Source: Melioribacteraceae bacterium (GTDB lineage Bacteria > Bacteroidota > Ignavibacteria > Ignavibacteriales > Melioribacteraceae). From it: 54,544 nucleotides of DNA. Made by a program: the position numbers and the translations under genes. A model generated the notes under the pieces. It searched no databases, had not been told where the DNA came from, and saw nothing but the letters and a program-made list of their open reading frames with translations. Shown here piece by piece: positions 29,937 to 54,245 of the stretch (position 1 is its first letter; every line of letters begins with the position of its first letter). The stretch is from positions 1 to 54,544 of the forward strand of contig JAKIUC010000030.1 of the NCBI GenBank assembly GCA_021647785.1, written 5' to 3'.

Positions 29937-31055
29937 CTATTCCCCAACTTCAAAATGATAATCCCTTATTTCTTCCTCCTCAAAACCGTATGGAGTTAAA
30001 TAAGTTGAACTGATAGAAGTAACGGTATCTATTACCTCTCCAGTTTTGTAGTCATATATATAGTAGGTATATTTATCGTAAAATCTTTTAACCATCATAC
30101 TAATAGCACCATATTTTATTGTAATGGCTTGATATCCAAGTAGCTGAAGATAGGCTGTAAAATATGCACTCCGTTGTCCATTTGGGCTATAAAGGACTAC
30201 ATTTTTATTTGTTGGCAGCGTTAATAAAAAACTGTTTGAAATAAAATCCCATCGAGTATCATATTCAGTTACACTTATTGGACCATATATAATTCTTGGG
30301 CTTTTCTCTGTTGGTGTAGGTAAACCTAAAATTGAATCTGGTATGGAATATATTACAAAACTGTTTATGTATCCTCCTATTTTGGGAGAGAAAAGAGCGT
30401 CAAATTCTTCTGCTGAAGTAAAGATATTTTGCGGCAAGTTATTTAATAATTGTTGAACTCTATCTTCCATCTTTTCTTCTATTGTTTCAGGATAGTTCTT
30501 ATAAAAGACAACTGGAGGAGAATAATAAATTGAACGTTTAATGGATTTCTGGTTCCGTACTAACCTCACCGCATCACTTTGTGCATTTCTCAATTCGTTA
30601 GAAAATATGTGATTCCAATAAGTCATCCCTCGATCTAGAGTATAAACATTTGTAAAACCAGTTAAGTACAACAGACAAGATGCATAGCTCGCTAACTGAC
30701 CTGTTGAACTTATAATAACAATTTTCTGATACGCAAAAGTATTAAGCTCTTTCAAGTAATCTATCAAGTCTTTCATTTTAATATTAATAGCACCAGAGAT
30801 ATGTCCTAATTTGTAATCAAATTCATCTCGTATATCCAAAACAAGATAATTACTAATATTTTGATTCAATTCATCAACTGTTACAAGGGATGGTCTATCA
30901 CTCCTGTTAAAGAAATTACTTCTCGTTTCTGTATAAGTTATCAAATCTGCGGAATTGCTAAATCTTACTTCTACTGAATCAACTATATCTTCAAAACAAC
31001 TGAAAAGAAATAGGGCTAATAAAATGAGTGATATTTTAAGTATGGTATATTTCAT
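29937..31055 (-). CDS. Tandem rhodanese-fold lipoprotein, catalytic Cys absent (copy A)
   Basis: 372 residues with a lipoprotein signal ending at Cys20 (FLFSCFED). A first rhodanese domain (about 55-150) contains LVLDIRDEFDYKLGHISGAINI, and its active-site loop reads IISSTGQLAS, with Ser where Cys is needed. It closes with RGMTYWNHIF. A second, degenerate rhodanese-like domain near 285-335 has the loop LYSPNGQRSA, also without Cys. Sulfur transfer is therefore unlikely; a binding or structural role at the membrane is more probable. It is the last gene of the TonB-receptor operon and paralogous to the gene 24 bases upstream. Confidence 0.75.
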   Translation of the reverse strand: MKYTILKISLILLALFLFSCFEDIVDSVEVRFSNSADLITYTETRSNFFNRSDRPSLVTVDELNQNISNYLVLDIRDEFDYKLGHISGAINIKMKDLIDYLKELNTFAYQKIVIISSTGQLASYASCLLYLTGFTNVYTLDRGMTYWNHIFSNELRNAQSDAVRLVRNQKSIKRSIYYSPPVVFYKNYPETIEEKMEDRVQQLLNNLPQNIFTSAEEFDALFSPKIGGYINSFVIYSIPDSILGLPTPTEKSPRIIYGPISVTEYDTRWDFISNSFLLTLPTNKNVVLYSPNGQRSAYFTAYLQLLGYQAITIKYGAISMMVKRFYDKYTYYIYDYKTGEVIDTVTSISSTYLTPYGFEEEEIRDYHFEVGE

Positions 31056-31079
31056 TTTGTTCTATAAGAAATTTATTTA

Positions 31080-32171
31080 TTAATCCCCGACTACCACATA
31101 AGGGTAATCTCTCATGTCCTGTTCAATATCTGTACAAAATAATGTATCATATCCAACTACTGCCAGAGGATTACCATATTTAGAAGTATCATATATTTCT
31201 CTAATATTAAAACACATCATAGTAATTTTTCCATATTTTACAGTTTTTGCTGAATATCCAAGCATTTTAAGATATGCTGTAATAAATGCACTCTGTTGCC
31301 CATTATCACTATAAAGAACTATATCCAAGTTTGGTGGTAAGGTTAGAAGAGCACTATTAGAAGTAAAATCAATAGGAGTATCATAGAAATATGACCTTAT
31401 TGGTCCATCAATCCATCTTTCTTCATTTCCTCTCAGGGTAGGTAATAACCTTTCTGGTTGAGCAAAAACAACAAAAGTACCTATGTACCTTCTTTGTCTC
31501 CTAGAATAAAGAGCATCTAATTTTTTTGCTGAAATAAAAATATTCTCTCGAGGTTCATTTAGTAATACTTGAATACGTTCTTCAATTTTTGCCTCAATTG
31601 TTTTAGGATTACTTTCATAATAAAGATCTGGTGGATTTGTTTTTTCAGAAGGTTGACTCGCTCTATTCCGCCTTGTATATAGTATATTATTACCAATTAC
31701 ATCTCTTAATTCATCAGAAAATACTTGATTCCAATAAGTCATTCCACCATTGAGTGTATAAGTCTTTTCATAACCACCAATAATTAATAGGCTTGAAGTA
31801 TAACTTGCTAATTGACCTGTATTACTGATAATAATAATTTTTTGAAACTGAGATAGATTATTTTCTTTTAAATAACTTAAAACATCTTTCATCTCAACAT
31901 TATTTGCACCTATTACATGTCCTGCTCTAAAATCAAATTCATCCCGAATATCTATAATATGATAATCACCTAAGCTTTGATTAAGTTCATCAACAGTTAC
32001 AAGTTGAGGTATATCTTCGCCTTCAAAAAATGTAGTTCTCGTTTCTGTATAAGTTATTAAATCTGCGGAATTACTAAATCTTACTTCTACTGAATCTACT
32101 ACATCTTCAAAACAACTTGAAAGAGATAGAGCAAATAAAATGAACAATAGTTTTCTCATTATTCTTTCCAT
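31080..32171 (-). CDS. Tandem rhodanese-fold lipoprotein, catalytic Cys absent (copy B)
   Basis: 363 residues. The Met at codon 5 (MRKLLFILFALSLSSC) is the better start, giving a standard lipoprotein signal. The first rhodanese domain has IIDIRDEFDFRAGHVIGANNV, with the loop IISNTGQLAS and the closing GGMTYWNQVF. The second domain has the loop LYSDNGQQSA. Neither loop has Cys. It shares the post-lipobox block FEDVVDSVEVRFSNSADLI with copy A, so the pair arose by tandem duplication. It lies 2 bases after the DUF4249 gene, in the same operon as the TonB-dependent receptor. Confidence 0.75.
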   Translation of the reverse strand: MERIMRKLLFILFALSLSSCFEDVVDSVEVRFSNSADLITYTETRTTFFEGEDIPQLVTVDELNQSLGDYHIIDIRDEFDFRAGHVIGANNVEMKDVLSYLKENNLSQFQKIIIISNTGQLASYTSSLLIIGGYEKTYTLNGGMTYWNQVFSDELRDVIGNNILYTRRNRASQPSEKTNPPDLYYESNPKTIEAKIEERIQVLLNEPRENIFISAKKLDALYSRRQRRYIGTFVVFAQPERLLPTLRGNEERWIDGPIRSYFYDTPIDFTSNSALLTLPPNLDIVLYSDNGQQSAFITAYLKMLGYSAKTVKYGKITMMCFNIREIYDTSKYGNPLAVVGYDTLFCTDIEQDMRDYPYVVVGD

Positions 32172-32173
32172 AA

Positions 32174-33007
32174 CTAATAACCTTCTATATCCATCGAAAC
32201 TAAAGTTGAAAAACCAATAAATAATCCTATTGTATTTTCTCCAGTAATGTTCCAGTTTATTGAACCTCCACCCTGCGAAAATATATCATCAATTGGCTTA
32301 TTATTATCCTTTGTTTCAAAATATTTTTTGTACGATTTATCCCAAGCATAAACTTCCACACCAAGTCTGTATTGATTTGATGGAGTTTGGTACTCTTGAG
32401 GAATAACACCAGTTCTAATAATTATTGAACCTGAATTTTCATCAAATGGTCCTTCAACTGAAAAGAACTCGCTTTCACGTAGTGCTATTTGAGGGTTTCC
32501 TACTTGATAGTTTTCTATTAAAACATAAACACAACTATAAACTACATCTTCTTGAGGTATAATTTCGCACTCAATATGCCCCTCAATTAAACGAGCCTTT
32601 ACTAATTCTGGAACTGAAGGTGCTATTGTGTATCCATTAATTCGTGTTTCATCTATTAAAGCAAAGAGTTCATACTTTGCTCCTGAGATAATAGTTAAAT
32701 CATATTTCGGTTTATAAATTCCATCCTTAATATATTCAAGCGGATACATCCTTAAGTCTTCAGTTTTAATATATGCAGTTACATCTTTTATCTCCGCTTT
32801 CTCTATATCAAACTTAGTATTTAATGGGAGACTTTTAGTAAACGTGATTTCCGGATTTTCATCACCACCAGAAATTTGACCACTTACAATATAAAGTTTC
32901 TCATATTCTAATTCCTGTTCAATATTATTAATATTTTCACAACTTGATAAAAATATCACAAGAATAAATAGCAATATTACTCTATCTTTTTTCATAATTA
33001 CATTCAT
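32174..33007 (-). CDS. DUF4249-family lipoprotein
   Basis: 277 residues with a lipoprotein signal (FLSSC, Cys at about residue 23). The block EKLYIVSGQISGGDENPEITFTKS with the following beta-rich domain, and ISGAKYELFALI further on, is typical of DUF4249. These proteins are regularly encoded next to TonB-dependent receptors in Bacteroidota and probably act as the surface lipoprotein partner of the receptor. The first ATG is at 33007, but Met5 (MKKDRVILLF) is an equally likely start. Ligand unknown. Confidence 0.8.
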   Translation of the reverse strand: MNVIMKKDRVILLFILVIFLSSCENINNIEQELEYEKLYIVSGQISGGDENPEITFTKSLPLNTKFDIEKAEIKDVTAYIKTEDLRMYPLEYIKDGIYKPKYDLTIISGAKYELFALIDETRINGYTIAPSVPELVKARLIEGHIECEIIPQEDVVYSCVYVLIENYQVGNPQIALRESEFFSVEGPFDENSGSIIIRTGVIPQEYQTPSNQYRLGVEVYAWDKSYKKYFETKDNNKPIDDIFSQGGGSINWNITGENTIGLFIGFSTLVSMDIEGY

Positions 33008-33018
33008 AATTACATCTC

Positions 33019-35370
33019 TTAAAATTTAAATGATATACCAAATGTTGGAATAAATGGCATTAAAGTTATCTGTTTAATTTTGGCAACTTCATCTTCTTCA
33101 TCATAAGCAACATAATGAGCAAACGGATTTTGTTGATTATACAAATTATACAATGTTAAATAAGCCTCTGCCGGAAGGTCAAGCATTTCAAATTTGTAAT
33201 TGAAACTTAAATCCATCTTATGATATGCAGGAAGTTTGTATTCATTTCGTCTGGTGTAGTTAAACTGTGTTCTTTCGTCACGGTCTCCTATTACTCCAAG
33301 GGGTGTAAATGAATATTGAGCAGTTGGCATTGTATAACCTTGTCCTGTAGCATAAGCCCAAGTAAGCCCCATAGTAAATACTTCACTAAATTTATAAGCA
33401 AGCACTACCGAAACATCATGCCTTCTATCGTACCTCGGATAAAAAATATTTCCAGCATTTAAATTATCAAATTGTCTGCGAGTCCATGATAAAGTATATC
33501 CAATCCACCCTGTTAAATTGCCGGCTCTTTTATTTATAAATAATTCAATTCCGTAGGCTTCTCCCTTTCCAACAGTAAAAAGTTCCTCAATCGATTCGCT
33601 TCTGTCATAACTTAATATCTCCTTAAACTCATAAAGGTTATCCATATTTCTATAATAAGCCTCCACAGATAAAAGATATTCCTTTTCAGAAAAATAGGCA
33701 TCAAACCCGGTTACAAACTGCTCCGAACGGCTTGGCAAAGTATTTTTTGTTGATGGGAACCACAAGTCCGTAGGTAATGTAATGTCGTTTCTAATTATTA
33801 AATGTAAAAATTGATTTGTAACAGCATAAGCTCCTTTAAAAAATAAATTACTTGTAATTGCAAGCGAAGCAGATAAACGAGGTTCAAAAAGTAACGAGTT
33901 TGATTCTTTAACATAGAATAATCTTACACCAAAATTTGTATTTAATATTGGTGATATTGCCCATTCATCCTGAATAAAAAATGAAGCTTCTGTTAGAAGT
34001 AAATCCTCAGAATAATCTGGAGAGACCTCTAATACTGGGTCATAAAAATCTCTATTAATAAGATTATAAAAATGAAGTGCTAATTCGAAACCAGTTTTAA
34101 GTGTGTGCGAATCATCCCATTTATATTCGAGATTAGTTTTAGCAATAAGATCTTTCAAATCAGATGATGAGAAATAATCATTTGCCAGCGAATCATTTTT
34201 TATATCATCAAGTGTAGTCTTTGTTCTAAAATTGATATAACTTAAGTTTGTATTTATCAGTAGCGAACTCGTAGTTATGTTTAACCAATTCAAGTTAAAA
34301 GAAGTATTGCTCCATTTAATATCGTAATTAAAATCTTCCGAACTTGTTGGGCTATAAATATAATCACTATTAAAATTACCACTAACGGAAATAATCTCAT
34401 TATCAGATATGTTATAATTTATCTTTCCATTTAAATCAAAAAAATTGTACCTCGGTGTTGAGCCATCATTATTAAAATTTTGTTGATAAAGATCATAATA
34501 CATAACCCTCGAAGAAATCATATATGTTGCCTTCTCAGATATTGGTCCTTCAAGTGTGCCGTGAGAAATTATAGTTCCTACTCCAACAGTTCCCTTTTCT
34601 TTCTCCTTAGTACCGCCACGCAATTTAATATCTAAAATGCTTGATAATCTTCCGCCATACTCAGCTGGGTAAGCTCCTTTTATCAATCTTATATCATGTA
34701 CAGCATTAGAGTTAAAAGAGCTTGCAATATTCCCGAGGTGAGCAGGACTATAAACTACCATTCCATCAACTAAAGTTAAATTTTGGTCAGGTGAACCTCC
34801 TCTTACGTAGAGACCAGTTGACATATCACTTGCAACTTTTACTCCTGGCAGCATTTGGAGAGTTTTAAAAATATCAACTTCACCAGAAAAAGATGGAAGC
34901 ATTTGCAGCAATTCAGGAGAGATGTCAATTGTGCTTAAACCTACATCATCCATTTTTTTATCTCGTACAATTATCTCCTGCAGTTCAACATCTTCCTGTT
35001 CCATTTTTACATTTAGACTTAATGAACCAGATAGTACCGTAATATTTACTTCCTCAATTTTACTTTTAAAACCAATGCTTCTAAAAATTATAAAGTAGTT
35101 CCCTTTTGAAACATTAGGGATTACATAAAAACCATATCTGTTGGATGATGTTCCTTTGAAGGGAGGGTTATCAATATCTATACTATCTTTATAAACCAGG
35201 ATGTTCGCTCCAATCATCTGATCACCTGTGGTAGCATCTGTGATTAATCCTGAAATTGTAACATTCTTACCCTGAGCAGATAGAAGAGAAAAGGATACTA
35301 AAAATACGAAAGTAAAAAGAGTTTTAACTATTTGTTTTTGTGTGTTACTATTCAAAATAAAACCCACCAT
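33019..35370 (-). CDS. TonB-dependent receptor with carboxypeptidase-like regulatory domain
   Basis: 783 residues. A signal peptide lies at about 1-33. A CarboxypepD-regulatory-like domain spans about 36-120 (VTISGLITDATTGDQMIGANI, NRYGFYVIPNVSKGNYFIIF). The plug domain is around 150-260 (GEVDIFKTLQMLPGVK, GLYVRGGSPDQNLTLVDGM). The rest is a 22-strand-type outer-membrane barrel ending in an aromatic residue (ISFKF). It imports an unknown ligand using the TonB-ExbBD energy module. It is first in an operon with a DUF4249 lipoprotein and two rhodanese-like lipoproteins, suggesting a four-part outer-membrane complex. Confidence 0.92.
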   Translation of the reverse strand: MVGFILNSNTQKQIVKTLFTFVFLVSFSLLSAQGKNVTISGLITDATTGDQMIGANILVYKDSIDIDNPPFKGTSSNRYGFYVIPNVSKGNYFIIFRSIGFKSKIEEVNITVLSGSLSLNVKMEQEDVELQEIIVRDKKMDDVGLSTIDISPELLQMLPSFSGEVDIFKTLQMLPGVKVASDMSTGLYVRGGSPDQNLTLVDGMVVYSPAHLGNIASSFNSNAVHDIRLIKGAYPAEYGGRLSSILDIKLRGGTKEKEKGTVGVGTIISHGTLEGPISEKATYMISSRVMYYDLYQQNFNNDGSTPRYNFFDLNGKINYNISDNEIISVSGNFNSDYIYSPTSSEDFNYDIKWSNTSFNLNWLNITTSSLLINTNLSYINFRTKTTLDDIKNDSLANDYFSSSDLKDLIAKTNLEYKWDDSHTLKTGFELALHFYNLINRDFYDPVLEVSPDYSEDLLLTEASFFIQDEWAISPILNTNFGVRLFYVKESNSLLFEPRLSASLAITSNLFFKGAYAVTNQFLHLIIRNDITLPTDLWFPSTKNTLPSRSEQFVTGFDAYFSEKEYLLSVEAYYRNMDNLYEFKEILSYDRSESIEELFTVGKGEAYGIELFINKRAGNLTGWIGYTLSWTRRQFDNLNAGNIFYPRYDRRHDVSVVLAYKFSEVFTMGLTWAYATGQGYTMPTAQYSFTPLGVIGDRDERTQFNYTRRNEYKLPAYHKMDLSFNYKFEMLDLPAEAYLTLYNLYNQQNPFAHYVAYDEEDEVAKIKQITLMPFIPTFGISFKF

Positions 35371-42704: not shown

Positions 42705-42935
42705 TTAAATTATCTCCAAATGAGCTTCAATAGTATCGGCAGATAAATCAGCACCGCAATCCCATTCTATGAAATATTTACCATTAAAAATATTTTTAAA
42801 AGCACCTTCATCTTTTAACTTTGAAAAAACTTCATATTCTAAATATGGTGTAACATCAAAAATGCCTTGTGTGCCATCTTCAGTGACTATGCGAAGTCTA
42901 TATTTTTTTTCTGGTTCAACTTTTGCAATTCTCAT
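42705..42935 (-). CDS. DUF2442 protein
   Basis: 76 residues. VEPEKKYRLRIVTEDGTQGIFDVTP, FSKLKDEGAFKNIF and YFIEWDCGADLSADTIEAHL are the typical DUF2442 blocks. It overlaps the DUF4160 gene by four bases (ATGA). The two families are often paired and have been discussed as toxin-antitoxin-like modules. Which partner acts, and on what, is unknown. Confidence 0.85.
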   Translation of the reverse strand: MRIAKVEPEKKYRLRIVTEDGTQGIFDVTPYLEYEVFSKLKDEGAFKNIFNGKYFIEWDCGADLSADTIEAHLEII

Positions 42936-43204
42936 TGGTCTAATCCTCTTATTTTAAATAAGTTTTTACCATTAACAGCAAGTTCCCAATCTGCAAGCAA
43001 ACTATCATGGTGAATTTCAATCCAAGCAACAACTAGTTTCTCTTTTTTCTTCGGTATTGAACCTGCAAGTAACTTACCATCGGGAATAGAATACACAGCC
43101 ATTTCACCTTGATATTCTGCGTGGATATGTGGTAAATGGTGTCTTTCTATATCTCTAAAAAACATCCTTATAAGGATACCATAAAACATAGATATTACAG
43201 GCAT
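42932..43204 (-). CDS. DUF4160 protein
   Basis: 90 residues opening with MPVISMFYGILIRMFF and the family hallmark HHLPHIHAEYQGEMAVYSI, then WIEIHHDSLLADWELAVNGKNLFKI. The His-rich motif (RHHLPHIH, about 21-28) could bind metal or nucleic acid. It is coupled to the DUF2442 gene downstream. The pair stands alone and behaves like a small mobile accessory cassette. Confidence 0.85.
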   Translation of the reverse strand: MPVISMFYGILIRMFFRDIERHHLPHIHAEYQGEMAVYSIPDGKLLAGSIPKKKEKLVVAWIEIHHDSLLADWELAVNGKNLFKIRGLDQ

Positions 43205-43524
43205 ATCCCAATTCCTTTTCTATTCAACACTTTCAATGTACTAAAATAAAGAAAATATTTCTAAATAATTTATTAACCACCCTAAAATATTATTAGTACT
43301 GAGATCATAAACTTATATCTATATTATGTAATAGCATATAACTATTTATTCTATCGATTCTATCTACATAAACAGACTTGGGTATATTGAGAATTTTAAT
43401 ACTACACACCCTCATAGATAAAAGCAGATAATTATATATTTAATTATTTTGAAAATAAACACTTTTTCTTCTAAAGACAAATAAACAAAAATTCAATTAG
43501 TAAGTGCGACAAAATTATTCCTCG
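43205..43524. other. Non-coding AT-rich gap
   Basis: The 415 bases between the DUF4160 gene and the XRE gene are very AT-rich. Apart from the second 70-bp repeat at the end (43525-43596) nothing is recognisable; a promoter for the DUF4160/DUF2442 pair presumably lies here. Confidence 0.5.
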
Positions 43525-43596
43525 CCACTACTTAAAGTTTCTACTTTTCTGGAATAATATTTTGTCGAGGAGTGGTCCTCGATAGCGCCTTGTAAT
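43525..43596. repeat. 72-bp intergenic repeat, copy 2, with inverted-repeat arms
   Basis: Homologous to 41801-41870. Here a left arm is kept as well: CGACAAAATTATTCC (43507-43521) is an imperfect inverted repeat of GGAATAATATTTTGTCG (43551-43567), so about 90 bases can fold into a hairpin. It resembles a small palindromic mobile element. Confidence 0.7.
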
Positions 43597-43619
43597 GGGG
43601 TTGGAAGATTATTAAATAT

Positions 43620-44177
43620 TTATGCCACAATTAAATCCTTTTTTCTAAGCTTTAATTTGGATTTACCTAACTCACGTAATGACATTTTTATATGCTGTTC
43701 TATTTCCGGTTTTATAAATGTAGGAATTAAATCTTTAAGTTCAATCGCCAACAATCTATGAATAATAACCAAATCATCTCTCGAAAATGGACGGACACCA
43801 TTTATTAATTCTGACATATAATTTTTTCGATGTCCTAAAATCTTTCCCAATTCTTGTTGCTTCAACCCATAAGATTTTAGTTTGTTTTTAATAAGGGATT
43901 TACGTTTTTGAATAAATGATTCTTCTGCAAAAATCAATTCTTCTGCCTTATCACTTTCTTCAATTTGTTCTTCTCTTATTTTCTCTAAATCCGACCAATT
44001 TTTATCTTCAAACGAACTAATTAATTTTCTCAAATGGTCTCTTTTTTCTTTCAAAGAAGAATCTTCTTTTACCATCCAACGCAATTTGCCATATAGTGAG
44101 ATAGCTCTTTCAAGTTCTAATTCGCTTTTGATTTCGGTTATTTTAAGTATGTTGTCCATATCCAAGTTTCCCATCAT
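43620..44177 (-). CDS. XRE-family regulator/antitoxin-like protein
   Basis: 185 residues. The N-terminal 110 residues are charged and helical (ITEIKSELELERAISLYGKL, as in HigA-2-type antitoxins). The C-terminal half has an XRE helix-turn-helix: LKSYGLKQQELGKILGHRKNYMSELINGVRPFS, about residues 103-135. No toxin gene is present in the expected position. The 71 bases upstream hold only a short open stretch (TIETWLREKG) that might be the tail of a lost partner. It may be an orphan antitoxin or stand-alone regulator. Met7 is an alternative start. Confidence 0.75.
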   Translation of the reverse strand: MMGNLDMDNILKITEIKSELELERAISLYGKLRWMVKEDSSLKEKRDHLRKLISSFEDKNWSDLEKIREEQIEESDKAEELIFAEESFIQKRKSLIKNKLKSYGLKQQELGKILGHRKNYMSELINGVRPFSRDDLVIIHRLLAIELKDLIPTFIKPEIEQHIKMSLRELGKSKLKLRKKDLIVA

Positions 44178-44248: not shown

Positions 44249-44884
44249 TTATTGCAAACGAAACGGAAAAGTAATAACAGCAGATTGAGGTTTCAACTCT
44301 TGTCCTGATGGTAACGCCTCAAATCTCCACTGCCTTAATGAATTTATTGCAGCAGCTTCCAATCTTGTATCAGCTTTCCTTATCGGAAATATTCTACCAA
44401 CAGAACCATCCGGCATTATTGTAAATTTTAATTTTACATCAATCTCTTTCGAAACTCCTGATGGATATGCAGGAATTGAATAACTGTAAATCTTCCTTTT
44501 CCCTTTACCGCCAAAATCTAATTCAAACCCAAACTTCCCTTCTCCCTCTCCACTAACTTCTCGCCCTTTACTGCTCTCTTTTTTCTTAACAACTTCTTTC
44601 ACCACTTTCTTCTTTTTGGGTGGTGAAGTTACTTCATTTGTTTCATCACTATTTTTAACTTTTGGAACCTCCACTTTCTCTTTCTTCTTTACTTCACGTT
44701 TCGGTTCTTTTTTTGTAATTGCTCCTGATGAACTGGTTTCGCCAATTGTACCAAAGCCTATTGTAACATATTCAGTATTATCATATTCTGGCGAAAATGA
44801 GAAAGCCATTAATACTATAAGAATTAATAGATGTACTATAACTGAAATAGCTGCGGATTGATATTCTGAGTTCTTCCAAAACAT
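44249..44884 (-). CDS. tonB: TonB-family energy transducer
   Basis: 211 residues: short cytoplasmic N-terminus, one membrane helix (about 13-32, IVHLLILIVLMAFSF), a Lys/Glu-rich periplasmic spacer (60-115) and a C-terminal TonB domain (about 135-211: IPAYPSGVSKEIDVKLKFTI, AAAINSLRQWRFEALPSG). It passes proton-motive energy from ExbBD to outer-membrane receptors. The gene overlaps exbD by one base (TAATG) and ends the operon. Confidence 0.9.
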   Translation of the reverse strand: MFWKNSEYQSAAISVIVHLLILIVLMAFSFSPEYDNTEYVTIGFGTIGETSSSGAITKKEPKREVKKKEKVEVPKVKNSDETNEVTSPPKKKKVVKEVVKKKESSKGREVSGEGEGKFGFELDFGGKGKRKIYSYSIPAYPSGVSKEIDVKLKFTIMPDGSVGRIFPIRKADTRLEAAAINSLRQWRFEALPSGQELKPQSAVITFPFRLQ

Positions 44885-45288
44885 TATAGCGATTCTTTTT
44901 CTGTTTCAATTGTAAATTTACTTATTCCAACACCTTTAGCTGCATCAATAACTTTAATTACTAAATCTATTTTTGCCGATTTATCTGCTCTGATAATTAG
45001 ATTTTCATCCGTAATGCTTTTTCTTATTTCTTCTAACTTTATTGGAAGTGCATCTACGGCAATCTCTTCTTTCCCAACAAATATTTTGCTCTCCTCTGTT
45101 ATTGAAACAATAATCCGTGCAGGTATTGTTTGCTCATTATTTTTTGCACTTGGTAACTGAACTTTAACTCCAGTTTGAATTACAAATTGTGATGTAAGCA
45201 AAAAGAAAATAAGGAGCAGCATCACAATATCAGTAAGCGACGAGAAGTGAAAAACAGAGAGTGGTTTATTTTGCATCTCAAATTTCAT
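44884..45288 (-). CDS. exbD: ExbD/TolR biopolymer transport protein
   Basis: 134 residues with one N-terminal membrane helix containing the functional Asp (SLTDIVMLLLIFFLLTSQFV, near residue 18) and a periplasmic domain with VKVQLPSAKN and LIIRADKSAKIDLVIKVIDAAK. It works with ExbB and TonB encoded on either side, 7 bases from exbB. Confidence 0.93.
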   Translation of the reverse strand: MKFEMQNKPLSVFHFSSLTDIVMLLLIFFLLTSQFVIQTGVKVQLPSAKNNEQTIPARIIVSITEESKIFVGKEEIAVDALPIKLEEIRKSITDENLIIRADKSAKIDLVIKVIDAAKGVGISKFTIETEKESL

Positions 45289-45295
45289 TTAAACC

Positions 45296-45937
45296 TCAAC
45301 CATTTTCTTTAGAGTTATCAGACGTACGAAGTTCTTCAACAATATCCACTACATCGTTGGATACTATTTCCATATCTAGTACAAATTTATTAATTGCACC
45401 AACTAAATAATTGTAAAAAGTATATGCTATAATTCCTACTATCAATCCAAACGCTGTTGTTAAAAGGGCTTCCCATATTCCGCCAGCTAAATCGCTTGGA
45501 TTTGCTGCACCCTGAAGATCTTCAATTCGCATAAAAGCGGTAATCATTCCGGTAACTGTACCTAAGAAGCCAAGCAATGGAGCAACACCTGCAATAGTTG
45601 CTAAAACTGATAATCCCTTTTCCAATTTATGAATCTCTTGCTTGCCAGCAGATTCAATTGCCTCCTTTACTCTTTCGTGACCAAAGCTAAATTTCTTTAA
45701 TCCTTTTTTAACAATATTTGCTGTAGGAGTTCTTGCCTCCATACAAACATTTAAAGCACCATTAATATCATTCCTTTTTAGCAGCCCTCTAATTTTAACT
45801 AAGAATGCCGGAACATTAGAACGTGACTTTCTTATAACTCTATATCTATCAATAATAATTGCTATTGTAATAATGGATGTTATAAAAATAAGGAGCATAA
45901 CCCATCCACCTTGTATAACGACTGACAACAAACTCAT
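45296..45937 (-). CDS. exbB: ExbB/TolQ/MotA-type proton channel protein
   Basis: 213 residues with three membrane helices: the N-terminal GGWVMLLIFITSIITIAIIIDR, then VLATIAGVAPLLGFLGTVTGMITAF and GGIWEALLTTAFGLIVGIIAYTFYNYL. These last two carry the conserved Gly, Pro and Thr of the channel. It forms the pentameric stator with ExbD. AAGGA lies before the ATG, 10 bases after the HU/SPOR gene. Confidence 0.93.
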   Translation of the reverse strand: MSLLSVVIQGGWVMLLIFITSIITIAIIIDRYRVIRKSRSNVPAFLVKIRGLLKRNDINGALNVCMEARTPTANIVKKGLKKFSFGHERVKEAIESAGKQEIHKLEKGLSVLATIAGVAPLLGFLGTVTGMITAFMRIEDLQGAANPSDLAGGIWEALLTTAFGLIVGIIAYTFYNYLVGAINKFVLDMEIVSNDVVDIVEELRTSDNSKENG

Positions 45938-45947
45938 AATTATCCTT

Positions 45948-47558
45948 TTAGATTTTATTTTTCTTTAAAAATTCTTCTGCTTCTTTTTGAGTGTTAAAAT
46001 ATCCAATCCGTACTCTGTTCCAAGTACCATTTTTTGATGCTATATATACCTTATAAATAAATGCATCAAATCCACGTTTTTTTAATTTGCTAACTTCACG
46101 CTCCGCAATGGTGGTGCTTCGCCATGATGAGGATTGAACCGTATAACGCTCTCCATCAAAATAGATTCTCTTAGTAATATTTTTATCATTTTCAATTTCT
46201 CTATAAAGTCCAGTTGATGTAGTACTAATTTTGGGTTTAATCACATTGGTTGCACTTGCTTTTTCCTTAGAGTCTTGCACCTTCTCCTCAGTACCCTTAC
46301 TATCTTTTCTAACTTTTTCAATTTCAGCTAATTTCTCAACTGTGGTTGGTTCATGTACAATTTGGGTTGCTTCATTTATTGTAGAATCACTTGTAGCTAC
46401 TGAATCAACAAAATCCGAATGACCTCTGATATCATCAGGAGTAGTAATCTCAAAACTACTTGATTCATTATTACTAACAGTATCACCAGAAGTTGGTATA
46501 AAAATATAGAGAACTACGAGTGCAGCAATAAAACTTATAGTAGCAATGTAGAGAATCGGATTTTTATACCACTCGTCAGATCCCGATTTCTTGGTTTTAT
46601 TTAATTTATCTTCTTCATGAGAGTCGGCAGCGGATAAAGAACTGTTTGCCAATTCTTCATTACTCTCCTCAACTGTTTCAGGTTCTGCATCAATTATTTC
46701 CTGAGCTTCATCTTTTGTTTCATCTTTAATATAATTATCAAGCTCATCAAACGGATTTGTATCATCCTCATTCAATTCACTATTTTCTGCCTCAAACTCA
46801 CTCCCTATTTCAGCTTCAATTTCGGTTTCATCATCATCTTTTTCTATTTCTGCTTCTGAAGCATTTACATCCTCTTCAGTAATCGCAGCTTCAATACTAC
46901 TCGAAGCTACATTATAATCATCATCTTCCTCAACGGGTTCATCATCTAAATCATCATTCATAAATTCTTTATTTATTTCTGCTTCTGTAAAATCAGCGGC
47001 ACTACTTTCAGCTATAATATCATCTGTAATTACTTCTTCGTTATCAATCTTCTCATCTTCAATAGTTGGGATAATATTTGATTGAGTAGCATCAAGCAAT
47101 TTATATCCTTCAATCACTTCCCCACTTTCAATAAATTCATTAATATTATTTATTAATTTTTCATCATCGTTTAAACTATCTTCTTTCGGAACTTCAATAT
47201 CTGGTTCAGAAATAATAGTAGGTTTATCAATACTAACATCAAAAACCGATTCACTAAATTCGTTTGGAGATTTGGGATGTTCATCTATTTCAAAGGAGAT
47301 AATTTTCTCCTCACTCACTTCACCTTCTGGCAGAAATAACAAAATTTCCTTTTCGCTGATGCTCCCTTCCATTTTTCGTTCCATCCGGGAGAGGGGTTCT
47401 TTCTTTATTTGAAAATGCCCTATTCCATTTAACTTAAGTGCTTGGTCCCCTTCTATCAATAAGGATATTTGCCTAATAAATTGGTTAAATACAGAATCAT
47501 CAGAATGACCAAGTATTTCCAAAACTATATTTTTTAATTCTTCTTTATTCATTTTCAT
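45948..47558 (-). CDS. HU-like/SPOR membrane protein
   Basis: About 536 residues from the ATG at 47558; an in-frame TTG at 47585 is less likely. The N-terminal about 85 residues resemble the HU/IHF-like domain of Bacteroidota SPOR proteins (LKNIVLEILGHSDDSVFNQF, LKLNGIGHFQIKKEPLSR). A very acidic, disordered region of about 240 residues follows, then one membrane helix (about 333-354). A second linker leads to a C-terminal SPOR domain (about 471-536: YTVQSSSWRSTTIAEREVSKL, VRIGYFNTQKEAEEFLKK), which binds denuded septal peptidoglycan. It therefore links a cytoplasmic domain to the cell wall. It overlaps or abuts the barrel gene and precedes exbB. Confidence 0.8.
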   Translation of the reverse strand: MKMNKEELKNIVLEILGHSDDSVFNQFIRQISLLIEGDQALKLNGIGHFQIKKEPLSRMERKMEGSISEKEILLFLPEGEVSEEKIISFEIDEHPKSPNEFSESVFDVSIDKPTIISEPDIEVPKEDSLNDDEKLINNINEFIESGEVIEGYKLLDATQSNIIPTIEDEKIDNEEVITDDIIAESSAADFTEAEINKEFMNDDLDDEPVEEDDDYNVASSSIEAAITEEDVNASEAEIEKDDDETEIEAEIGSEFEAENSELNEDDTNPFDELDNYIKDETKDEAQEIIDAEPETVEESNEELANSSLSAADSHEEDKLNKTKKSGSDEWYKNPILYIATISFIAALVVLYIFIPTSGDTVSNNESSSFEITTPDDIRGHSDFVDSVATSDSTINEATQIVHEPTTVEKLAEIEKVRKDSKGTEEKVQDSKEKASATNVIKPKISTTSTGLYREIENDKNITKRIYFDGERYTVQSSSWRSTTIAEREVSKLKKRGFDAFIYKVYIASKNGTWNRVRIGYFNTQKEAEEFLKKNKI

Positions 47559-47578
47559 CTCAAATAATTTAAGAATGT

Positions 47579-49168
47579 TTACCAACGGTACTCAATACCA
47601 ACAATAATATCAAGAGGTTTTTCTTGATACCCTTTTAACAGATACTCTTTTCTATTCAAAATATTTTGTAAATTACATGTTAGTGCAAGGGTTTCAAAAA
47701 TATTATACTTTAATAATAGACTAAGATTAACATAATTTGGTAGTCTATTTCTGTTTAATAAATCTGTATAAATTTTGCTTGAATAACTAACTTTAATTTT
47801 TGAATATAATCCAAAATTTAAAAAATAGCCATAAGATAAGCTACCATTTAATAATGGTTTATAAGGAATTTTATATCCCTCTTTATCTTTAACGTCCTGG
47901 AATTCAAAATCTGCAAATAGTTCGCCATAACTTTTTGTATTAACCAAAATATTAAAAAAGGCACCCGTTTCTTTTACATCATTAATTGGAACAAGGGTAA
48001 ACCTATTATCCTTTGCTAAATCCTCGTAATAATGATAGTTGTCATACTTAGATGAATAAAACCCAGCATTAATTTCAAATATATCAGAGAAATCATACTT
48101 GATGGAAAGATTCAACTTGGAGTAGTTTTTTTGAAATATATTTTTTCTATTAGTCTCAAAATATCTGTTCTCGTATAAAATATCTTGTATCGTAAATAGC
48201 TTAGAGTTGCCTTTGTATGAAAGAAAGAGAGCAACTCCCTCCTCAACAAAAATAGATAAAACTGCTGTTGGAGAAAAAATATTGTTTGTATCCTGCTGTG
48301 AGTAATGTACTCCAATTTTAAGATTAAAAATATCAGAATTATTAAAGTGAAGGTAAGCATCACCACTAAAGTAATTATATTTCGAGTATTCTAATTCTCC
48401 AACATTTACTTGCTGTATTTTGTAAAATCCATTTGCACCAACAGAAACAACACTTAGACTATATTCTAAAAATCCGTTAACTTTACTTAAGTTCTCTTTC
48501 ACATTCTCCATTTTCATATTTAAATAATTCCCTGAAAATGTTGCCCCATAAAGAAAATCTTTATTCAGTCTATTTAGAAAATCAATATTTCCATAATATT
48601 TTTCATTCTCTCTCTCAAAAGTTGGAATATCTGAACCATAAAAATTGTATTGGTCTCTTACAAACCCTCCCCTTAGATTTATTGTCATTCCTGGAAATAT
48701 ATTCAATTTATGATTTAAATAATATGATAAACTAACCTCTGCACCTGAAGTATTGTAGCCGGCATAAGGGAGAAAATCACGAATATCACTTCCAAAAATA
48801 TGGGTATTAAACAGAAAGTTGTTTTTGTTAAAACTAAAATCTAATCTTCCAATTGGTAAAGTTTGCAAGCCAGCACCAAGTTGTAAAAGTCCATTATAAC
48901 TCTCCACATTGGAGTATAATTCCATTTGTTTTTTTATAGGATTTGTGTTATCTATAAGTGCAAATTCTTCATTGTCATATTTTGGAGTTAAAAATTCCTT
49001 GCCAATAACAGGTACAAATTCCGATTTGTTTTTATTTAAGGTTGGAAGAGAAACTGACTGAACCCCAGTAATAACGAAGGCAGGTAACTCAATACTCTGA
49101 TTTTTATTTTCAGATTGAGCTAATAAACTAAAACTTAAAGCAATTAATATGACTAATATCTTTTTCAT
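47579..49168 (-). CDS. TonB-receptor-like outer-membrane beta-barrel protein without plug
   Basis: About 529 residues from the ATG at 49168 (MKKILVILIALSFSLLAQS). An upstream in-frame ATG at 49234 would translate a palindromic repeat and is rejected. After the signal peptide comes a short IELPAFVITGVQSVSLP segment resembling the start of a TonB-receptor plug. The protein then goes directly into barrel strands rich in Tyr/Phe (FLFNTHIFGSDIRDFLPYAGY) and ends LDIIVGIEYRW, with LLLKYNIFETLALTCNLQNILNRKEYL typical of TonB-receptor C-termini. The plug domain is absent, so transport is doubtful. It is cotranscribed with TonB-ExbBD genes and a giant TPR gene. Confidence 0.7.
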   Translation of the reverse strand: MKKILVILIALSFSLLAQSENKNQSIELPAFVITGVQSVSLPTLNKNKSEFVPVIGKEFLTPKYDNEEFALIDNTNPIKKQMELYSNVESYNGLLQLGAGLQTLPIGRLDFSFNKNNFLFNTHIFGSDIRDFLPYAGYNTSGAEVSLSYYLNHKLNIFPGMTINLRGGFVRDQYNFYGSDIPTFERENEKYYGNIDFLNRLNKDFLYGATFSGNYLNMKMENVKENLSKVNGFLEYSLSVVSVGANGFYKIQQVNVGELEYSKYNYFSGDAYLHFNNSDIFNLKIGVHYSQQDTNNIFSPTAVLSIFVEEGVALFLSYKGNSKLFTIQDILYENRYFETNRKNIFQKNYSKLNLSIKYDFSDIFEINAGFYSSKYDNYHYYEDLAKDNRFTLVPINDVKETGAFFNILVNTKSYGELFADFEFQDVKDKEGYKIPYKPLLNGSLSYGYFLNFGLYSKIKVSYSSKIYTDLLNRNRLPNYVNLSLLLKYNIFETLALTCNLQNILNRKEYLLKGYQEKPLDIIVGIEYRW

Positions 49169-49379
49169 CTGTTTACCTGTTCCGCATCTCTTAGCGGAAT
49201 AATTTTTCATCCTAACCTTGAAGGTTTGAATCATGTTCGTAATCTTAATCTTTTATTAAACATCGAACTTCTGTAAGAATGCCTGGAGCAAAAGAATATC
49301 GATTCACGAAATGTTTTTCCTTCATGATTCTATATTCAGCATTCAGTATTCGATATTTATTTTATACACTTTACTAATA

Positions 49380-52355
49380 TCAAACTTTTTTCAACTTTCT
49401 TCTTGCCTCTTTACCATATTCATTTCTCGGATGTTTCTTAATTACAGCTTTATACATTTTACGAGCATTTGCTTTATCATTTAACTTATGATAACTATCA
49501 CCCAACTTTAATAGCGATTTTGTAAACCATTCGTCGTAAGTAGCAAACACAGTTCTCACTCGTACTAAAGCAGATATTGCTCCGTCATATTTTTTTTGTT
49601 CATACCGTGCAACACCAAGGTAGTACTGGGCTTTGGCTCCAATATCATCATTTCTATTCTCGGCAACTTCACTAAATAATTGTTCCGAGTTTGAAGCTCT
49701 CTTATTCTCAATTTCTAAAATTCCAATCTCAATTTTTGCTTTATCAGAGAAAAGAGTTTTATCGTAGTATGTAATTATTTCATTAAAAGATTTATATGCA
49801 TCATCTTTTTTATCAGCATTAATATTAGCAGCACCTTGAAGAAATAATATTTCCTCAGCTTTGGGTGATGCTGCAATTTTAGGCAATACAGATTTATATA
49901 ACTCAATCTCCTTCAAATAATTTTTATTACCTGAATATATTTTCCCAAGTTCAACAATTGCCTCAATTCCATAATCTGAAATTATATGCTTATCAATAAT
50001 TTCCTTAAAATAATCCGCAGCTTCAGTTGGCTTCTTTAATTGGAGGGAACTCTTACCCATCCAATAGAGTGCTTCCGGTACTAATTCACTATTCGGATAA
50101 AAGTTAATCATTTCAGAATAACCAATCATAGCCTTGCCATAATTGCCATAGCTAAAATAGATTTCCCCTTTTTTCATCAAAATTCTATCACTGTTTTCTA
50201 TGTGCGGGTACTTTACAATATATCCATTTATTAGCGACACCGCATCATCAGGTCTATCTAATGCTAAATAACTATACTGAATTCCATTCATCGCATCGTA
50301 AACAAATTGAGTTTTAGGAAAGTTATCAATTATTTTTAAGTAATAGACTATTGATGAATCATACTCCTCCGAATTGTAATAGGAATCCCCAATTGAGTAG
50401 TAGGCTATTGGCACAATAGAAGATTTTGGATACTCCGTAATTAAATTTTTATAATTATTAATTGCTAAATCATAATTATTTTTTTGAAAATGAATCCAGC
50501 CAATTAAGTATTGCGAATCATCACAATATTTAGAATTTGGGAACCTCTTTAATAATAGCTTAAATTTATTTATTGCCGAATTACTTTTACCAGATTTAAA
50601 CAATGATTGCCCATATTGAAATAGCACAAAATCATTTCCACTTCTATCAGGGTATTTAGAAAAATATTTTTCATACTCTGCACTTGCTAAATCAAAATTT
50701 TTCATTCCAAAGTAACTATCGGCAAGTCTTAGTTGTGCATCAATAAAATTTCCATAATTTTTATACTTTGTGATATACTCCTTAAAATAGTAAGCAGAAT
50801 TTCCATAATCCTTTAAATTGAAATATGAATATGCCATTCCATAGAGTGCAGATTTTCCAATGTAATCATCACCTAAATCAACTCGATAAAAATGCTGCTG
50901 TGCTTTTCGAAAATTACCCATTGCAAAATATGTTTCAGCAAGATAATAATGTGTCTTCCGTTTTTCAAAATCTCTGGCACGTACCGATAAATCAATTAAG
51001 TTCATTGATGCATCATCATACTTTTTTAAATAATATTGTGCAGCACCTAAACCCAATATAGCACGGTTAGAAACATCTTGTGGAAGCATTGGAATTTTAA
51101 CTGCTTTATCAAAATACAATTCTGCCTCTCTATAATTTTGATACTCCAGATTTATTTCACCAAGCAAAATTAAAGCCCTACTCTTATAATTTTTATTGTT
51201 TGAGTATGAAGATATAATTAAATTTGTTGAAGCCTCTTTAAACTCTTTCCTATTATATTGAATAATTCCAAGTGATAGCCTCACAGCATCAGTATAAGAA
51301 TTTGATTCTAAATCTGTTAGAAATGTTTCGTAAATTTTTTCAGCAAATGCAGTTTCACCAAGATATCGCTTGCTTTCCCCACTCCAATAAAGAGATTTAA
51401 TTGAAATACTATCCTGCTCCCCTTTAAGAGTGAGTTCTAAAAATTGCTCGTAAGCTTTTCCATAATTTTGCTGTTGGAAGTTTACCCAAGCAACACCAAA
51501 TTTTAATTCCCGTTCAATGTTACCAGATGTGTTTCTTTTTAGAACATCTCTAAAAGCATTTTCAGCTTTTTCATATTCTCCCAATCTAAAGTACGAATTT
51601 GCTAATAAGTACCCTGCATCAATCTGTTCTTTTTCGGGCAATTCCAAAATCAGCGGGTCGGTTAATTCCAATACTGCTCTTTCATATTCCTTCAATTTAA
51701 AATAACTTCCACCAATTCTTAACTGTGCACTCGGGAGTAACTCACTTTCCGGATGGTATGCAAGGAGTTCATCATAATAAGTTACTGCATTGCTATACTT
51801 TTCCTGCAATTCATAGATATAGGCAAGGGAATATATTGTATAATCTATTTTATCCCCATATCTATCTCGCGAAACAGCTTCTAATAAAAACTCCTCAGCT
51901 TCAATATATTTATTTTCATTAGCGTACGATTGCCCAATCCAATAATAAGCCAAACCAATTTTTTCATATTTCGGATATTCACTAATTAGTATTAAAAGTT
52001 TCTCCCTAACTTTTTGATAATCTTCTAATTCAAAATATGTAGTACCCAATTTAAATAGTGCCTCAACTCTAAAATTTGAAAAATTATATTTACTTACAAA
52101 ATATTCAAATTCGTGAATGGTACCATTAAGAAGCCCTAATTTTAGCAAACAATCAGCAGCATAATATTTTGACGAAACTACAAGATTTTCATCTATGTCG
52201 TGTTTCATAGATATATCTAAAAACCTCTCACGAGCTTCAGCAAAGTGACTTGCATTATACAACTCCATTGCCTCAGAAAAGTTTACATTACTTTGTGCGG
52301 ATATAACATTGGCAAAAATTAAGATGAAGATAATTTTTTGGATAATTGTTTTCAT
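49380..52355 (-). CDS. Giant tetratricopeptide-repeat envelope protein
   Basis: 991 residues with a signal peptide (about 1-20, ending VISAQ). The entire mature part is TPR/Sel-like helical repeats, roughly 25 units of about 34-37 residues (for example ALFKLGTTYFELEDYQKVREKL, AQLRLADSYFGMKNFDLASAEY, ALYWMGKSSLQLKKPTEAADYF), reminiscent of BamD/YbgF-type periplasmic scaffolds. It is the first gene of the operon leading to the barrel, HU/SPOR and TonB-ExbBD genes. A role as a periplasmic assembly scaffold for an envelope complex is inferred. Confidence 0.85.
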   Translation of the reverse strand: MKTIIQKIIFILIFANVISAQSNVNFSEAMELYNASHFAEARERFLDISMKHDIDENLVVSSKYYAADCLLKLGLLNGTIHEFEYFVSKYNFSNFRVEALFKLGTTYFELEDYQKVREKLLILISEYPKYEKIGLAYYWIGQSYANENKYIEAEEFLLEAVSRDRYGDKIDYTIYSLAYIYELQEKYSNAVTYYDELLAYHPESELLPSAQLRIGGSYFKLKEYERAVLELTDPLILELPEKEQIDAGYLLANSYFRLGEYEKAENAFRDVLKRNTSGNIERELKFGVAWVNFQQQNYGKAYEQFLELTLKGEQDSISIKSLYWSGESKRYLGETAFAEKIYETFLTDLESNSYTDAVRLSLGIIQYNRKEFKEASTNLIISSYSNNKNYKSRALILLGEINLEYQNYREAELYFDKAVKIPMLPQDVSNRAILGLGAAQYYLKKYDDASMNLIDLSVRARDFEKRKTHYYLAETYFAMGNFRKAQQHFYRVDLGDDYIGKSALYGMAYSYFNLKDYGNSAYYFKEYITKYKNYGNFIDAQLRLADSYFGMKNFDLASAEYEKYFSKYPDRSGNDFVLFQYGQSLFKSGKSNSAINKFKLLLKRFPNSKYCDDSQYLIGWIHFQKNNYDLAINNYKNLITEYPKSSIVPIAYYSIGDSYYNSEEYDSSIVYYLKIIDNFPKTQFVYDAMNGIQYSYLALDRPDDAVSLINGYIVKYPHIENSDRILMKKGEIYFSYGNYGKAMIGYSEMINFYPNSELVPEALYWMGKSSLQLKKPTEAADYFKEIIDKHIISDYGIEAIVELGKIYSGNKNYLKEIELYKSVLPKIAASPKAEEILFLQGAANINADKKDDAYKSFNEIITYYDKTLFSDKAKIEIGILEIENKRASNSEQLFSEVAENRNDDIGAKAQYYLGVARYEQKKYDGAISALVRVRTVFATYDEWFTKSLLKLGDSYHKLNDKANARKMYKAVIKKHPRNEYGKEARRKLKKV

Positions 52356-53486: not shown

Positions 53487-54245
53487 TTATTTCAATTGTT
53501 TTAACTCATACTCGCTAGAAGCTTTGTAGGTCTTATCTTTTACAGCAATCTTAAAATTTTCTCTTGCTTTCTCTTTATCATCAAGCCCTTTAAAAGCTAA
53601 CCCTTTGTAATAGTAGCCAGCACCTTTCGATATTTTCTTTCTGTTGTTAATTGCATTATCTGCAGCAGAAAGAGCATCCTGATATTTACCTAAATCAATA
53701 TTAATTTCAGCCAATGCTAAATATGCAGAATCGTACTTGTAATTTTTAACAGCTTCATTTAAATATTTAATTGCTTGTTTATGTTTTCCGTCACGTTTTG
53801 CACTCTGACCTAACTGAGTATAAGCAAGACCAATAAATTTTTTGATTTTCGCTTTACTTTTTTCATTATCAGTTTTTTCAAGAAATTTATTGAAATTATC
53901 AATTGCTAATTGATATTTCTTAAGCGAGTAATAAGTTGTACCTAAACCACTATATGCTGCACTAAAATCAGGGTTTAATTCAACACATTTTAAAAGAGCT
54001 TGTTCAGCTTCATCAAACTTTCGTATCTTTTTTAATGCAACACTTTTTTGATAAAACATATTTGGATGTGCTTGAATTGCAATAGCAGAATCATATTTTT
54101 CAATTGCCCCAATAAATTGTCCCGATTTAATTAACTTATTCCCTGCATTGTAAAGTGGAGCTGCTTCTTGACTCATTTCCTGACCAAAAAGAATTGACCC
54201 GAAAAATAATAGTAGAGAAAGAATTGAGATGCTTAACTTGTTCAT
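53487..54245 (-). CDS. Secreted tetratricopeptide-repeat protein
   Basis: 252 residues with a signal peptide (about 1-21, LFFGSILFGQ). About six TPR units follow (AAPLYNAGNKLIKSGQFIGAIEKYDSAI, AAYSGLGTTYYSLKKYQLAIDNFNKF, AYLALAEINIDLGKYQDALSAADNAI and others). It is a periplasmic protein-interaction scaffold of unknown partner. It stands alone between the bidirectional terminator and tRNA-Leu. Confidence 0.85.
   Translation of the reverse strand: MNKLSISILSLLLFFGSILFGQEMSQEAAPLYNAGNKLIKSGQFIGAIEKYDSAIAIQAHPNMFYQKSVALKKIRKFDEAEQALLKCVELNPDFSAAYSGLGTTYYSLKKYQLAIDNFNKFLEKTDNEKSKAKIKKFIGLAYTQLGQSAKRDGKHKQAIKYLNEAVKNYKYDSAYLALAEINIDLGKYQDALSAADNAINNRKKISKGAGYYYKGLAFKGLDDKEKARENFKIAVKDKTYKASSEYELKQLK

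Follow-up and report, generated by a model that had tools for sequence, protein, structure and literature searches.

We analyzed a 54,544-nucleotide contig of a Melioribacteraceae bacterium of the Ignavibacteria (GenBank assembly GCA_021647785.1, contig JAKIUC010000030.1), referred to in its full length as the window, and found that an outer-membrane barrel encoded there has no plug but carries a TonB-box-like motif. Comparison with relatives indicated that this motif and a separate subfamily of TonB encoded by the same locus are lost together. The interval 44249-52355 holds six open reading frames (ORFs), all on the minus strand, for a TPR protein, the barrel, an HU-like/SPOR protein, ExbB, ExbD, and TonB; an earlier note on this DNA had described the six genes, and all were present there on one strand. 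Our favored reading, to which we give somewhat less than an even chance, is that they encode a trans-envelope machine, powered by Ton, whose pull acts on the plug-less barrel and which performs a Tol-Pal-like task.

The motif, IELPAFVITG, occupies residues 48-57 of the barrel, shortly after the signal peptide. No other 10-residue window of the protein is as well conserved: its mean majority residue is 91%, whereas the barrel domain averages 41% and the linker 43%. In the same genome, receptors that do carry a plug have segments such as LDEVVVTS, LEEVVVSA, and GEDVVVTA just before it; 12 of 41 Plug loci were inspected for this comparison, with 7 fitting the pattern used. In the L084 receptor, this segment likewise follows the signal peptide. 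When one genome each of 84,980 species was scanned with the pattern [IV]ELP[DEA]FVIT, 105 genome stretches matched, and 97 of these encode relatives of this barrel. From its place, its pattern, and its loss together with TonB, we infer that IELPAFVITG is a TonB box. The earlier note had proposed a plug-less barrel served by TonB; both barrel and TonB held up, but the strongest clue to mechanism, the N-terminus with its TonB-box-like motif, had been overlooked.

To compare the box with the TonB subfamily of the operon, hereafter the dedicated TonB, we examined 58 barrel loci, comprising the window, 37 relatives from the order, and 20 from the class. The box pattern matched 54 of the 58 barrels, and that of L128 (FELPEFIIEG) was counted as the 55th by eye. 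The 3 box-less barrels came from three families (L062 from genome G032, L135 from G209, and L140 from G109). Of the 55 box-bearing barrels, 53 had TonB near the locus, and the genomes of the other two, G389 and G313, encode a TonB of the dedicated type elsewhere (2.7e-60 and 6.9e-50). No dedicated TonB was detected in box-less genomes G032 and G209, and G109 had only a 31.7-bit partial match that was taken as an ordinary TonB. The dedicated TonB accompanied 55 of 55 barrels with the box and 0 of 3 without it (Fisher 3.2e-5, not corrected for kinship). Genome G291, of the same genus as G109 and not among the 58, was also box-less and without dedicated TonB. By this comparison, the box and the TonB subfamily are lost together, and coupling between barrel and TonB is well supported.

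We also tabulated co-occurrence across 80 genomes. A dedicated TonB of at least 50 bits was found in 70 of 75 genomes with a barrel match and in 1 of 5 without (Fisher 3.8e-4), a co-occurrence that is not independent of the TonB profile, to which some of these genomes supplied rows. The same-genus genome G002, which is 94% complete, lacked both barrel and dedicated TonB and had a very weak TPR match; it may represent either a gap or a loss and was left uncounted.

An AlphaFold2 model of the barrel, built from 38 aligned sequences, had a mean pLDDT of 84.3 and 22 strands spanning residues 113 to 550, while the region between the signal peptide and the first strand was mostly of low confidence and without a fold. 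The top 50 rows of a Foldseek search with this model were all TonB-dependent transporters (TBDTs). VIA-align placed it on FhuA (8a60_A) with a Z of 23.3 over 420 residues (rmsd 2.7), aligning it to FhuA residues 158-714, i.e., past FhuA's plug. The sequence profile of the barrel also matched TBDT structures (best 8.5e-08), and one TBDT model in NCBIfam matched weakly (0.004). There was no Pfam match at E 0.1, the PF07715 plug domain included. The 41 Plug matches in the genome at E 0.001 all fell in other frames, longer than the barrel's and none shorter than 607 aa, so a stand-alone plug is not among them. With Pfam, the genome Plug matches, the model, and the FhuA alignment all searched for a conventional plug and none found, modeling confirmed the earlier claim of a barrel without a plug and assigned it the TBDT fold. 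Mostly single copy, the barrel had a match in 55 of the 58 order genomes (its own included; none in G002, G045, and G054) and in 286 of 395 sampled across the phylum. A second match to its N-terminus in its own genome (contig 27, 64% over residues 6-44) overlapped the signal peptide of an unrelated-looking ORF and was dropped as chance.

We compared gene order in 37 loci fetched from the 54 other genomes of the order with a barrel match, in 20 loci from the class, and in 20 from the phylum. Within the order, all 37 loci had the TPR gene directly upstream of the barrel gene and on its strand, and ExbB, ExbD, and TonB followed within five genes after the barrel in 32 of 37, so the genes are not scattered among Ignavibacteriales relatives, in keeping with the single unit proposed earlier. 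TonB was kept in 36 of 37. Loci L048, L060, L068, and L073 had TonB and no ExbB or ExbD, in six frames as well as in the ORF list; L062 had none of the three, with an alpha-amylase gene in their place (L062:5353-7737). The gene after the barrel was recognized as SPOR by search in 30 of 37 loci and by eye in the other 7. Class counts of ExbB, ExbD, and TonB were taken from a six-frame search, as antisense ORFs masked the ExbB of L137 in the ORF list. The TPR gene was directly upstream of the barrel in 18 of the 20 class loci; ExbB, ExbD, and TonB all followed in 4, and 12 more had TonB near the locus and neither ExbB nor ExbD (TonB in 16 of 20). At the phylum level, TPR was directly upstream in 14 of 20 loci, ExbB and ExbD were at the locus in 14 of 20, and TonB was recognized in 9 of 20. 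To judge from these neighborhoods, TPR and barrel look like a stable core, with TonB a close companion in the class and ExbB/ExbD more exchangeable.

The operon TonB is the lowest scoring (29.7 bits) of the genome's seven TonB_C matches. Its family has a distinctive conserved C-terminus, its profile matches E. coli TonB structures, and most relatives gave a strong match to the dedicated profile; by these sequence comparisons it is a separate, divergent subfamily. Its divergence and its loss together with the box lend good support to the notion of a dedicated TonB put forward in the earlier note. In its membrane helix, Ser14 is kept in 43 of 52 sequences and His18 in 42 of 52, and at least 95% of 33 sequences keep Asp20 in the ExbD membrane helix and Thr127 and Thr161 in ExbB; we take all of these to be motor residues. 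In the SPOR-ExbB-TonB set of genome G070 (L252:9509-11666), the TonB-type protein begins, as judged by eye, with a segment like the ExbD membrane helix and is possibly an ExbD-TonB fusion.

Pfam identified MotA_ExbB (5.6e-35), ExbD (4.6e-26), and TonB_C (2.1e-06) together at the locus, the domain set that marks a Ton system. The genome has four MotA_ExbB matches: the operon copy, a copy on contig 40 that belongs to an ExbB-ExbD-ExbD set, and another two among flagellar genes. The operon ExbB scored 109.8 bits with the tolQ model (cut-off 221) and 73.0 with the exbB model, both below cut-off, and the operon ExbD scored 55.0 bits with the tolR model (cut-off 127.3), the tolQ/tolR models outscoring exbB/exbD. 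By sequence, a TolQ chain was the best match to the operon ExbB, with ExbB close behind. The motor thus leans to TolQ/TolR, below cut-off.

SPOR is clear in the third protein (Pfam, 3.5e-11), and in 36 of the 38 proteins examined a single transmembrane (TM) segment separates the acidic linker from SPOR; the exceptions are L035 (broken by Ns) and L047 (a split gene). The window copy had no HU match in Pfam or NCBIfam. Its HU-like region was modeled as helix-helix-strand, with HU/IHF proteins as the best Foldseek hits at a weak E (0.015), and in VIA-align HU chains reached a Z of about 3.4, no better than unrelated folds. In relatives, the operon-equivalent protein of L150 matched the HU-CCDC81 domains PF18174 and PF18175 (1.4e-20 and 1.3e-12) as well as SPOR, the proteins of L069 and L052 matched PF00216 above cut-off, and that of L146 matched HU-CCDC81 below cut-off. 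These relatives make an HU-like domain likely in the window protein, so that of the HU-like/SPOR description given earlier the SPOR half is firm and the HU half draws on relatives and on a weak fold match.

The giant TPR protein described earlier is indeed 991 aa long and TPR by Pfam. It begins with a signal-peptide-like stretch and, by eye, has no evident lipobox. Eleven stretches match tol_pal_ybgF (TIGR02795), the repeats inflating the score, and the protein reached 78.2 of 383 bits with the CpoB model. With NF052312, the model for PorW/SprE of the type IX secretion system, it reached 115 of 250 bits, below cut-off; we rejected both PorW/SprE and YfiO/BamD as identities, the similarity being generic to TPR.

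The operon resembles several known systems (feature coordinates are given in Table 1). With TBDTs such as FhuA and BtuB it shares a 22-strand barrel, a TonB-box-like N-terminus, and an ExbBD-TonB motor alongside; it differs from them in having no plug, in that the barrel gene lies, mostly as a single copy, next to TPR and SPOR genes, and in having its own TonB subfamily. With Tol-Pal (TolQRA-TolB-Pal-CpoB) it shares a TolQ/TolR-leaning motor, a periplasmic TPR protein, and a possible septal link, here through SPOR. Unlike Tol-Pal, it has no TolB and no Pal, its transducer has a TonB-type C-terminal domain, and an integral barrel takes the place of a lipoprotein as outer-membrane partner. TolB_N was found in 0 of 15 genomes tested, with a search that recovers E. 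coli, Caulobacter vibrioides, and Bacteroides ihuae. None of the six operon proteins has an OmpA domain, as in Pal; four occur elsewhere in the genome, in frames of 387 and 579 aa and, for two, in a flagellar-motor cluster. The HU-CCDC81-SPOR proteins of Bacteroidetes, for which a chromosome-partition role has reportedly been predicted, share the HU-like N-terminus, TM segment, and SPOR, whereas the window copy scores no HU family and is tied to a TonB-barrel operon. The exopolysaccharide exporters AlgK-AlgE, BcsC, and PelB likewise combine a TPR scaffold with an outer-membrane barrel, but here the barrel has 22 strands and a TonB-box-like motif, TonB is present, and no synthase was seen nearby.

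The sections of a 2025 paper on which we draw (PMC12204202) report no identifiable tol-pal loci in Bacteroidetes, expect further outer-membrane-stabilizing systems there, and propose PorE as an outer membrane-peptidoglycan tether in this group. Like the operon, PorE as presented in those sections contains TPR and has been put forward to fill this gap in the phylum; unlike the operon, it is a single CpoB-TolB-Pal-like fusion lipoprotein, with no barrel and no dedicated motor named (PMC12204202). Our searches of open-license PMC articles, by title and start of abstract, returned no account of the operon or of a natural plug-less barrel with a TonB box.

Table 1. Features of the six-gene locus, with window positions.
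Feature	Position	Strand	Basis or remark
TPR protein, 991 aa	49380..52355	-	ORF list; TPR Pfam families; predicted periplasmic scaffold
Plug-less outer-membrane barrel, 551 aa as listed	47579..49234	-	likely start 49168
TonB-box-like motif IELPAFVITG, barrel residues 48-57	49064..49093	-	conservation, pattern
22-strand barrel domain, residues 113-550	47585..48898	-	AlphaFold2 model, FhuA alignment
HU-like / acidic linker / TM / SPOR protein, 545 aa	45948..47585	-	likely start 47552; family alignment
HU-like N-terminal domain, predicted cytoplasmic	47274..47552	-	helix-helix-strand model, Foldseek, relatives' Pfam matches
Predicted single TM segment, residues 344-362 of HU-like/SPOR protein	46500..46556	-	hydropathy 2.59
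SPOR domain, residues 478-542, predicted periplasmic	45960..46154	-	Pfam
ExbB/TolQ-type motor subunit, 213 aa	45296..45937	-	Pfam MotA_ExbB
ExbD/TolR-type motor subunit, 134 aa	44884..45288	-	Pfam ExbD
TonB of separate subfamily, 211 aa	44249..44884	-	Pfam TonB_C
TonB C-terminal domain, residues 139-210	44255..44470	-	TIGR01352; E. coli TonB structures, profile E 7.9e-10

Four of the five gene junctions overlap or are at most 26 bp apart, and the TPR-barrel gap is 145 bp (211 with the later start). Promoter and terminator pattern scans yielded sites no more numerous than in shuffles. From gene packing and conservation we infer a single operon. The likely starts in Table 1, both ATG and both chosen from alignments, probably make the barrel and HU-like/SPOR proteins shorter than listed. 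An upstream small TPR protein (53487-54245) was considered as a seventh gene and not counted, as a divergent gene intervenes in the window; genes of its length are frequent near the locus in relatives.

The surroundings of the locus held several other gene sets. Just upstream of the system in L041 (L041:2560-5241), and alike in L036, L046, and L068, are genes for an extracytoplasmic function (ECF) sigma factor and an anti-sigma-like protein, a neighborhood that may possibly link to envelope stress; the window contig ends short of the sigma factor's place. In L036, L041, and L046, the sigma/anti-sigma genes are accompanied by genes for a small secreted protein and for a TPR protein of 252/253 aa, and L041, the only one of these loci on which Pfam was run, has a divergent LTXXQ/Metal_resist protein near them. 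After tonB in the window (42932-44177) lie a DUF4160 protein and a helix-turn-helix protein in a toxin-antitoxin-like arrangement, and the same place in L036 and L041 is taken by convergent genes (in L041, by Pfam, DUF4199, DUF2085, and NHL-repeat proteins). Several class relatives have a gene of about 448 aa after tonB (L126:13587-14942, L127:12397-13743, L129:4927-6267, and L132:13565-14911); the four that were read resemble UDP-glucose dehydrogenases by eye. Genome G045, of the same order and without a barrel match, has a set encoding TPR (1049 aa), ExbB (298 aa), ExbD (140 aa), and a 421-aa protein (L246:4429-10203), which resembles the TPR-tolQ-tolR-transducer loci described in the sections of PMC12204202 cited here. 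Farther off in the window (29937-33007), two adjacent ORFs of 372 and 363 aa with very similar N-termini, together with a 277-aa ORF, adjoin a receptor with a Plug match (33019-35370).

In the machine that we favor, ExbB and ExbD would use the proton gradient to move the dedicated TonB, whose C-terminal domain would bind the ELPxFVITG box on the barrel's flexible periplasmic N-terminus, a step supported by their loss together. Since there is no plug, the pull could not unplug a pore and would act on the barrel, hence on the outer membrane. It would also act on the TPR protein, which presumably lies beneath the barrels and caps or crosslinks them, and the HU-SPOR membrane protein may bring the complex to septal peptidoglycan and tie it to the nucleoid or cytoplasm. 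Taken together, these parts would couple the outer membrane to the wall and the inner membrane in an energized way during growth or division, a task like that of Tol-Pal. Box-TonB binding, the barrel-TPR partnership, septal targeting, and constriction are thus predicted steps; constriction or septal remodeling, which the earlier note had suggested, is argued for by SPOR, by the TolQ/TolR-leaning motor, and by the absence of TolB in the 15 genomes. A more specific proposal, which we consider rather doubtful, is that the operon fills the place of the missing Tol-Pal in Ignavibacteria and in much of Bacteroidota, and that in it TonB pulls the barrel's box and, with TPR and HU-SPOR, draws the outer membrane in at the septum.

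Several observations weigh against this machine. The box pattern had no match in the 20 phylum-level loci, where looser motifs were seen by eye only. ExbB and ExbD were absent from 16 of 20 class loci by six-frame search as well as from 5 of 37 in the order, so the ExbBD motor that had been called dedicated is so only in part. Five genomes (G032, G109, G291, G209, and G251) have a barrel and no dedicated TonB, although in G251, which lies outside the box count, the barrel match is weak (4.4e-5). In the first four, TPR and barrel are full length though TonB and box are lost, so the motor is not always needed, and SPOR is also retained in G032, G109, and G291. G070 keeps SPOR-ExbB-TonB at a locus that lacks TPR and barrel, and has no barrel match genome-wide. 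Some class relatives lack HU in the SPOR protein (L122 and L124, by eye). The TolB_N match in the control Bacteroides ihuae places a TolB-like domain somewhere in the phylum, and OmpA-domain proteins were found in 15 of 15 genomes tested, making another outer-membrane tether possible. The finding on tol-pal in PMC12204202, as far as cited here, is stated for Bacteroidetes and may not extend to Ignavibacteria.

The main rival is an energized export or secretion channel, in which the wide barrel would be the conduit, the TPR protein a periplasmic gate and cargo receptor, much as in the TPR-barrel pairs of exopolysaccharide export, and TonB the driver of gating or of cargo movement. In its favor, TPR-barrel is the most stable part of the locus (37/37 in the order, 18/20 in the class, and 14/20 in the phylum); a barrel without a plug also suits a conduit, and the UDP-glucose-dehydrogenase-like gene after tonB in several class relatives would fit a polysaccharide link. 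A TBDT is described as needed for protein secretion in Myxococcus in the part of PMC6434023 cited here. However, no synthase or obvious cargo gene was present in the order neighborhoods that were read (L036, L041, L046, L048, L060, L062, L068, and L073), and the SPOR and HU domains are hard to account for. The 22-strand TBDT barrel also differs from the barrels of exopolysaccharide export, which have 16-18 strands. We regard an export channel as possible yet doubtful.

Two further explanations appear much less probable. The TBDT barrel, TonB-box-like motif, and TonB motor are all features of importers, and a nutrient importer whose plug has been replaced by the TPR protein or by an unlinked protein would explain them; yet the barrel mostly occurs as a single copy, 55 of the 58 order genomes have it, and its linkage is to SPOR, not to substrate genes, and the genome has its 41 Plug matches for import, with other TonB_C genes, all of which makes an importer very unlikely. 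Alternatively, the motor might serve the SPOR protein or another partner, with the barrel a mere neighbor and the joint loss of box and TonB a sign of general locus decay. G070, which keeps SPOR-ExbB-TonB without the barrel, and the TonB-less lineages that retain the barrel speak for this, but the box is the barrel's best-conserved part and is missing only where TonB is missing, TonB stays with the barrel more than ExbBD does, and barrel, TPR, and SPOR are still full length in G032 and G109, contrary to decay; we think it improbable.

If the operon is indeed a Ton-powered machine acting on the barrel, TonB would be able to work on a barrel lacking any plug to dislodge, a case outside the standard account of plug removal by TonB. 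A TBDT barrel would then have become a mechanical anchor, and no such mode of Ton action turned up in the literature searched. The operon is a conserved, mostly single-copy candidate for outer-membrane upkeep without Tol-Pal, with a ten-residue handle that is open to mutation.

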